DNA of 64,000 nt from Sphingobacteriaceae bacterium (GTDB taxonomy: Bacteria > Bacteroidota > Bacteroidia > Sphingobacteriales > Sphingobacteriaceae), in contig JACMJM010000011.1 in the NCBI GenBank assembly GCA_014380615.1, positions 62,001 to 126,000 of the forward strand, written 5' to 3'. This document shows, piece after piece, positions 33,019-42,718 of this stretch. The position numbers and the translations under genes were made by a program. The stretch's first letter is position 1, and every line of letters begins with the position of its first letter. Below the pieces are notes generated by a model. It ran no database searches. It had not been told where the DNA came from and saw only the letters and a program-made list of their open reading frames with translations.

Positions 33019-33387
33019 TGGTGGACCCGGAGAGATTCGAACTCTCGTCCAAACATGGAACAAATTATGCTTTCTACATGCTTATCTGCCATTTAATTGT
33101 AGGGAAGGGGAAGGCTGGCCGATTGCCTGTACCGTCTTCCTTAGGTGCTTTATCTTGTTCGGTTTCCACACCTTAAACCAAACCAGTCCTGTTGTTCGAT
33201 GCCCCGTATGCTGATATAACAGAACAGAATACCAGCGGGACAAAAGCTATGCTAATTCTAAATTAGGCAGCTAAGGCGTAGTTATTTTCGCCAATTATTG
33301 TTTTGAGAGTTCAGATTAGAGCGCTCGTCTCACAACGCGCTGCATGCTTACATACTTGCCGCCATCCTGTCAATTCCGGTCGGGCCC
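33019..33387 (-). ncRNA. ssrA: Transfer-messenger RNA (tmRNA)
   Basis: The tRNA-like ends pair: 5' GGGCCCG at 33387 with 3' CGGGTCC, a T arm GAGAGTTCGAATCTCTC, and an encoded CCA at 33019-33021. The 5' region reads GACCGGAATTGACAGGATGG, as in other tmRNAs. The internal reading frame at 33292-33263 encodes the tag GENNYALAA followed by TAA. It rescues stalled ribosomes with SmpB and marks products for proteolysis. The length of 369 nt including CCA is normal. Other translations in this stretch are shadows. Confidence 0.96.
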
Positions 33388-41707: not shown

Positions 41708-42538
41708 TTACACTCCGTCGTTCTTCCTATACTCTCCCATAATTGCAAAGTTTACGGTATATCTCAAAATTTTTCTTACCGCTTCATCGTAGTCTTCCTT
41801 AGATGAAAATTCAAGGTCGATATAGAAGTTGTATTGGTTGCGTTTACCTAGCACAGGCATACTTTGCACCTTGCTCATATTGATGTTGTGTTCGGCAAAA
41901 ACATTAAGAACCTTTACCAGTGAACCGGGTTCATCTGCTACCTGAAAAGAGATAGAGGCCTTATTGGCATCTTCTATTAAAATGTCTTTGTTATCCGTTA
42001 ATATCAGAAAACGGGTATAATTCTTTTTGTTGGTTTCGATGCGGCGCTCCATAATTTCGAGGCCGTACGTTTCTGCCGCAAGTTTGTTGGCAATAGCCGC
42101 AACATCTTTCAACTGCTCTTCCTGGATACGTTTTGCGCAGGCAGCAGTATCTACACTCTCAGCAACCTTTAAATGCGGATGCTCGTTGAAGAAGTCATCA
42201 CACTGGCGGATTGCGATAGGATGAGACTCCACTCGTACAATATCCTCAAACTTTACCCCGGGGAGAGCCATTAGGTTAAGCTGAATGTGCAGGTACACCT
42301 CGCCAATTATAGAAAAATGGTAGTCGCGCAGCAGCGTATAATTAGGCAGGAGACTTCCGGCAATCGAATTTTCGATAGCCATCACCACAAAATCCGCCTT
42401 TTTATTTCTCAGTTCTTCGCAGGTTTGTTTAAAACTATTACATTCTATAGTTTCAATACCCTCACCAAAAAATTTAAGTGCGGCTTCTTCGTGAAACGAT
42501 GCCTTAATACCCTGGATTGCTACTCTTTTTTTACTCAT
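41708..42538 (-). CDS. pheA: Prephenate dehydratase
   Basis: The protein has 276 residues. The dehydratase domain begins VAIQGIKASFHEEAALKFF, and has VVMAIENSIAGSLLPNYTLL, VESHPIAIRQCDDFF and KNYTRFLIL (TRF is the catalytic motif). A C-terminal ACT regulatory domain (about 195-276) has SISFQVADEPGSLVKVLNVF and binds Phe for feedback. It converts prephenate to phenylpyruvate. It is the first structural gene of the aro operon and is preceded by a leader-peptide attenuator. Confidence 0.97.
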   Translation of the reverse strand: MSKKRVAIQGIKASFHEEAALKFFGEGIETIECNSFKQTCEELRNKKADFVVMAIENSIAGSLLPNYTLLRDYHFSIIGEVYLHIQLNLMALPGVKFEDIVRVESHPIAIRQCDDFFNEHPHLKVAESVDTAACAKRIQEEQLKDVAAIANKLAAETYGLEIMERRIETNKKNYTRFLILTDNKDILIEDANKASISFQVADEPGSLVKVLNVFAEHNINMSKVQSMPVLGKRNQYNFYIDLEFSSKEDYDEAVRKILRYTVNFAIMGEYRKNDGV

Positions 42539-42547
42539 TGTTTAAAC

Positions 42548-42576
42548 AAAAAATCCCGGCCTTTTGGGCCGGGACT
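42548..42576 (-). terminator. Attenuator terminator before pheA
   Basis: On the minus strand TCCCGGCC (42574-42567), loop CAAAA, and GGCCGGGA (42561-42554) form an 8-bp GC-rich stem followed by six T. It lies 10 nt before the pheA start codon, so termination here silences the operon. The ascending arm also pairs with the alternative arm at 42610-42619. Confidence 0.88.
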
Positions 42577-42609
42577 CTGTATATAATTTCGTTTGGTTCA
42601 AAACATATC

Positions 42610-42619
42610 AGTCCCGGCT
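42610..42619 (-). promoter_or_regulatory. Antiterminator arm of the pheA attenuator
   Basis: AGCCGGGACT on the minus strand is complementary over 9 bp (GCCGGGACT with AGTCCCGGC at 42576-42568) to the ascending arm of the terminator. The two structures are mutually exclusive. It lies 1 nt after the leader peptide stop codon, so a ribosome that reaches the stop would cover it. Confidence 0.75.
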
Positions 42620-42620
42620 T

Positions 42621-42671
42621 TTACTGGTAGTAGTAAAAGTAACCGAAATAATATGTGTTGATGTGTTGCAT
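42621..42671 (-). CDS. Tyr/Phe-rich leader peptide of the pheA operon
   Basis: A 16-residue peptide reads MQHINTYYFGYFYYYQ and ends in TAA. Six residues are Tyr and two Phe, all in positions 7-15, far above what chance would give in a peptide of this size. It begins about 10 nt after the promoter start and ends 1 nt before the antiterminator arm. It is too short for an independent function and has the layout of a ribosome-stalling leader, sensing charged tRNA-Tyr and tRNA-Phe. No initiator motif is obvious upstream, which is usual in this phylum. Confidence 0.85.
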   Translation of the reverse strand: MQHINTYYFGYFYYYQ

Positions 42672-42687
42672 TTCTTATTTGATGTGG

Positions 42688-42718
42688 CAAATGTAAGATA
42701 CTTTAATCTAAAGTCAAA
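42688..42718 (-). promoter_or_regulatory. Promoter of the pheA leader
   Basis: TTTG (42718-42715), a 19-nt spacer, and TACATTTG (42695-42688) on the minus strand form a textbook Bacteroidota promoter. Transcription would begin near 42681, giving a short 5' end before the leader peptide ATG at 42671. Confidence 0.75.

Follow-up and report, generated by a model that had tools for sequence, protein, structure and literature searches.

A classic-type Tyr/Phe leader-peptide attenuator predicted upstream of the pheA operon in Sphingobacteriaceae

Layout of the pheA locus

The window, a stretch of 64,000 nucleotides from a Sphingobacteriaceae bacterium, carries on its minus strand an operon that begins with pheA and continues with genes for a DAHP synthase-chorismate mutase fusion, EPSP synthase and chorismate synthase (Table 1). 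The true start of aroC probably lies downstream of the listed GTG; its Pfam match begins at residue 46. Ahead of pheA, a predicted promoter is followed by a short frame in which half of the codons (8/16) specify Tyr or Phe, by two complementary arms and by a predicted T-tailed terminator that ends 9 nt before the pheA ATG. From the leader to the T run, the RNA folds at -43.0 kcal/mol, compared with -18.3 +/- 3.3 kcal/mol for shuffled versions (z -7.4). Simple scans for promoter hexamers and terminator hairpins, taken alone, returned sites no more numerous than in shuffles, and the case for an attenuator therefore rests on structure and conservation.

An initial annotation of this region had listed a consensus promoter, a 16-codon Tyr/Phe leader frame, an antiterminator of 9 bp and a GC-rich terminator followed by six T. 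Both antiterminator arms lie where it had put them, and leader frame, promoter and T run are present as well. The coordinate check moved the promoter start from 42718 to 42717, placed arm 1 two nucleotides past the stop codon instead of one, and shortened the distance between terminator and pheA ATG from 10 to 9 nt.

Table 1. Features of the pheA leader and operon, in window positions
Feature	Position	Strand	Basis
Predicted promoter, Bacteroidota type TTG-N19-TAnnTTTG	42717-42688	minus	elements and spacing also in relatives
Promoter element TTGACT	42717-42712	minus	
Promoter element TACATTTG	42695-42688	minus	
Leader frame MQHINTYYFGYFYYYQ-stop, 6 Tyr and 2 Phe in 16 codons	42671-42621 (ATG at 42671, TAA 42623-42621)	minus	sequence and relatives
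Protector hairpin, sequesters arm 1	42661-42598	minus	fold, covariation, cognate pairing test
Protector pairs	42661-42658/42601-42598; 42656-42649/42610-42603; 42648-42643/42617-42612; inner stem 42639-42632/42625-42618	minus	
Arm 1, 5' antiterminator arm, GCCGGGACT	42618-42610	minus	sequence; pairing with arm 2 in relatives
Segment 3' of arm 1, GATATGTTTTGA; leader partner in the protector, alternatively antiterminator extension	42609-42598	minus	
Arm 2, 3' antiterminator arm and 5' terminator arm, AGTCCCGGC	42576-42568	minus	sequence, fold, covariation
Predicted intrinsic terminator with six T	42578-42548 (hairpin 42578-42550, six T 42553-42548)	minus	sequence and covariation
pheA, prephenate dehydratase with ACT domain	42538-41708 (ATG at 42538)	minus	Pfam PDT 3e-57, ACT 3e-8
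DAHP synthase-chorismate mutase fusion	41560-40451	minus	Pfam DAHP_synth_1, CM_2
aroA, EPSP synthase	40451-39177	minus	Pfam
aroC, chorismate synthase	39160-37958	minus	Pfam

Conservation in the family and class

We found pheA in 176 of the 181 genomes of the family. The DAHP synthase-chorismate mutase gene follows it in 110/110 loci; of these, 104 also show aroA and 71 aroC, many loci being too short to include them. Upstream DNA was read for the 110 loci and for 80 further genomes, and in practically every region a short frame rich in aromatic codons precedes the same arms and a T-tailed terminator. Among the relatives, the leader RNAs ahead of pheA number about 95 distinct sequences. The control codons (Tyr, Phe or Trp) vary among genera while the frame stays aromatic-rich throughout; many leaders also carry a Trp codon, which suits an operon of the shared pathway. 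Besides, the full promoter was present in 97 and its TAnnTTTG element in 102 of 108 relatives.

Built from 37 diverse members, an RNA model scored 105.5 bits in the window and gave one strong match (>65 bits) per genome, adjoining pheA, in the pheA-bearing genomes of the family, save for a few divergent ones (G008, G009, G032) with no strong match. Four further families of the class (G037, G050, G041, G038) gave weaker matches upstream of pheA (36-53 bits); leader frames with terminators are visible in these genomes and in G048, while two other pheA loci, those of G047 and G057, showed no leader frame with terminator. Run against the genome of the window in search of further copies, the model returned, beyond pheA, only plain terminators among the matches inspected.

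Three alternative helices

The protector is the minimum free energy structure in the window and in nearly all of the 37 relatives. It joins leader codons to arm 1 and to the next 12 nt, taking in arm 1 except for one or two bases, and the RNA up to arm 2 folds at -22.3 kcal/mol (z -6.4). In the alignment of relatives, 11 of its pairs covary (a number reached by 1/500 shuffles), 45 cells are changed on both sides (0/500), and pairing is kept in 82.9% of cells, against 32-44% for slid versions. Compensatory changes include ACATATT/AATATGT in some genera and CGCATATT/AATATGCG in others, and genera with an arm 1 of GCGGGG have CGC in the leader in place of CGG. An alignment-free test over 21 genera (20,000 permutations) further showed that the 5' half of the leader pairs better with its own than with a swapped post-arm-1 segment (p 1e-4; control pair, p 0.054). 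In the same 21 genera, a match of this segment to the stretch preceding arm 2 was likewise found without alignment (p 0.0012). Since it both pairs with its own leader and matches the latter stretch, the segment probably changes partner from the one to the other. As read from the sequence, the design is the classic four-arm one, with a protector.

The antiterminator, 9 bp long in the window, shares arm 2 with the terminator and reaches -20.2 kcal/mol, far beyond shuffles. Its arms are paired in 91.8% of cells across the 37 relatives, yet its covariation is modest and weaker than that of protector and terminator (5 cells, reached by 24/500 shuffles; score, 3/500). In the terminator, 20 cells carry compensatory changes, a count as high in 0/500 shuffles. 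Slid-structure controls scored much lower in these helix counts; the shuffle and permutation tests remove the relatedness of the genomes only in part. RNAalifold on the whole alignment recovered no more than the inner stem of the protector and the terminator, because the alternative helices compete, and the named structures were counted instead. The mutual exclusion of antiterminator and terminator ahead of pheA, proposed in the initial annotation, is thus borne out with conserved helices, and the conservation check it had called for found leader frame and alternative stems kept in relatives, with compensatory changes. Given the conserved leader RNAs, promoter, T runs and helices with their base changes, the element is far from chance.

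Ribosome position and the proposed switch

We consider it very probable that this element is a classic ribosome-mediated transcription attenuator of the trp/phe type, placed before pheA-DAHPS/CM-aroA-aroC. The supply of charged tRNA-Tyr and tRNA-Phe would set the expression of these genes through a four-segment scheme of protector, antiterminator and terminator, in which each helix excludes the next. With no ribosome, energies and transcription order suggest that leader codons and arm 1 would form the protector, that the antiterminator could not start and that the terminator would form. A ribosome stalled on a Tyr or Phe codon would open the protector and free arm 1, whose pairing with arm 2 would block the terminator and allow the operon to be read. 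A ribosome at the stop codon would, judging by its footprint, cover arm 1 and let the terminator form.

In a calculation of geometry and folding only, which assumed a ribosome footprint of 12 nt, placing the A site at Tyr/Phe codons 7-15 left the antiterminator at about 1.0 at the decision point, and a ribosome at the stop codon brought this value to 0. This agrees with the earlier proposal that a ribosome at the stop abolishes the antiterminator and a stalled one does not; its restriction to early Tyr/Phe codons has to be dropped, as every such codon up to codon 15 leaves the antiterminator possible. At equilibrium of the full-length RNA, the terminator wins at every ribosome position and the ribosome states are not separated, so the switch would depend on co-transcriptional timing. 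At the decision point without a ribosome, equilibrium slightly favours the completed antiterminator over the protector. We therefore deduce the default state from the order of transcription: without translation, the operon is probably OFF, provided that the protector forms first. The stop codon recurs at two places. Of 109 parsed leaders, 21 (7 genera) share the arrangement of the window, with the stop shortly ahead of arm 1; most of the others extend the frame across arm 1, with SKSRD or a similar ending, and have their stop immediately past it. In either case a terminating ribosome would sit on arm 1, in keeping with the mechanism.

Alternative explanations

A three-arm attenuator without a protector, as initially annotated, would make read-through the default of an untranslated leader. 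The start of arm 1 two nucleotides after the stop would suit such a design, as would the slightly greater stability of the antiterminator once both helices are complete. However, the claim that no separate protector hairpin is needed is contradicted by a protector that comes out as the minimum free energy structure in the window and in almost all of the 37 relatives and that shows covariation, including cognate-specific pairing, and we regard the three-arm version as very unlikely. Much the same holds for hairpins acting mainly on pheA translation, through start-site occlusion or leader-coupled reinitiation, and not on termination: although the terminator ends just 9 nt from the pheA ATG in the window, this distance varies from about 8 to 99 nt among relatives, yet a T run of 5 to 10 is found in 108/108 of them, and this reading, too, has little to recommend it.

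That conserved alternative structures precede a biosynthetic operon would also be expected of a ligand-binding riboswitch or a T-box with a leader frame by chance. Yet an Rfam search of the region gave no family at gathering score, Bacteroid-trp RNA (RF01692) included, and the best match, a weak full-length one to Phe_leader (RF01859), reached 30.3 bits with a cut-off of 55; moreover, the aromatic frame is kept across genera though its codons vary, which makes such an element highly improbable. Least credible of all is a plain terminator whose upstream frame arose by chance, for which we see next to no room: terminator and promoter scans alone do match shuffle counts, but frame, arms and RNA model are conserved across the family.

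Relation to known attenuators

With E. coli pheL and RF01859, the pheA leader of the window has in common a peptide rich in the amino acid of its operon, the logic of protector, antiterminator and terminator, and the target pheA. The enterobacterial pheA leader is dominated by Phe. The window differs from the gammaproteobacterial leader in its ratio of Tyr to Phe (6 to 2) and in an operon with DAHPS/CM, aroA and aroC; the element thus works like the Phe_leader family yet falls outside RF01859.

The classic trp, his, ilv, thr and leu attenuators of Proteobacteria and Actinobacteria share the four segments and the ribosome-position logic with our element (PMC1262725, PMC1183508), which differs in its mixed Tyr/Phe(/Trp) control codons and, in most relatives, in a leader frame that runs through arm 1. 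Before their own Firmicutes case, Naville and Gautheret knew such systems only from Proteobacteria and Actinobacteria (PMC2965389). Within the phylum, Bacteroid-trp RNA is likewise a cis-regulatory RNA of an aromatic pathway (PMC2864571), and a transcriptome study of Flavobacterium psychrophilum reports strong clues for leader-peptide attenuation before amino-acid operons (PMC9723704). The pheA leader is classed here as a new example of the classic attenuator that is absent from Rfam; no Bacteroidota pheA example of this design appeared in the literature searched, which did not cover a 2010 comparative survey, so that priority is uncertain. As a classic attenuator it is well resolved, each of its three alternative helices having comparative support, and it comes from a phylum where the literature found merely hinted at such systems, and it could seed a new RNA family entry.

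Tyrosine codons and the tyrosine route

The observation in the initial annotation that the operon encodes no tyrosine enzymes stands and can be widened: the TyrA protein query detected no prephenate dehydrogenase in this genome (G000, 93% complete), and most TyrA-less relatives are able to make Tyr from Phe. Across the family, 61 of 181 genomes were positive for TyrA and 114 for phenylalanine hydroxylase, with both enzymes in 28 and neither in 34. PF02153 matches of 20-33 bits in TyrA-less genomes (that of G000 at noise level) were not taken as TyrA, because true TyrA exceeds 100 bits and the protein query finds none there. The hydroxylase, too, was not detected in the 93% complete G000, even at E 10, while the sister genome G001 carries it, as do most TyrA-less relatives. 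In Echinicola and Dyella, fitness data support a route to Tyr through such phenylalanine hydroxylases (PMC7311316). With no detectable TyrA here and the hydroxylase in the sister and most TyrA-less relatives, pheA probably, if with less certainty, also feeds tyrosine via phenylalanine in this lineage; if so, Tyr codons would be sensible controls.

Averaged by genus, Tyr/(Tyr+Phe) is lower in 7 TyrA-positive than in 14 TyrA-less genera, with a p of 0.001 that overstates the case because there are only 1-3 independent contrasts; that leaders are richer in Tyr in TyrA-less genera is thus suggestive only. It is conceivable, though we lean against it, that leader codons were retuned to the Tyr route, becoming Tyr-rich where TyrA was lost and the hydroxylase is present and Phe-rich where TyrA was kept. 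The Phe-rich leader of genus g3, which lacks both enzymes, was counted for this reading; the 34 genomes with neither enzyme detectable, G000 included, speak against it. Several of these 34 (G000 and 33 others) have Tyr-rich pheA leaders, and the group may consist of Tyr auxotrophs, reflect assembly gaps or use an unrecognised Tyr route. In genus g13, which otherwise lacks TyrA, one genome (G174, L165) has a TyrA that shares 55% identity with the query; its leader, which probably starts at TTG, keeps Tyr and Trp codons with no shift to Phe and counts against retuning. Leader codon mixes with and without TyrA offer a testable case of a leader peptide following a pathway change.

Similar leaders and neighbouring features

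In G017 (L226, 794-921), a leader MTNINYINNWWWYGKNRAGKLI with a protector-like fold and a T-tailed terminator directly precedes genes for anthranilate synthase component I (Pfam Anth_synt_I_N, Chorismate_bind) and a glutamine amidotransferase; it is apparently a Trp attenuator of the same design as the pheA leader. Another leader, MIFNTSIITTIIITTG, lies with a terminator before aspartokinase (Pfam AA_kinase, ACT) on the minus strand of G034 (L224, 1723-1852) and G013 (L227, 1785-1914), apparently an attenuator of the Thr/Ile type that resembles enterobacterial thrL. The window also contains a minus-strand tmRNA gene at 33019-33387, which closely follows an aminotransferase gene.
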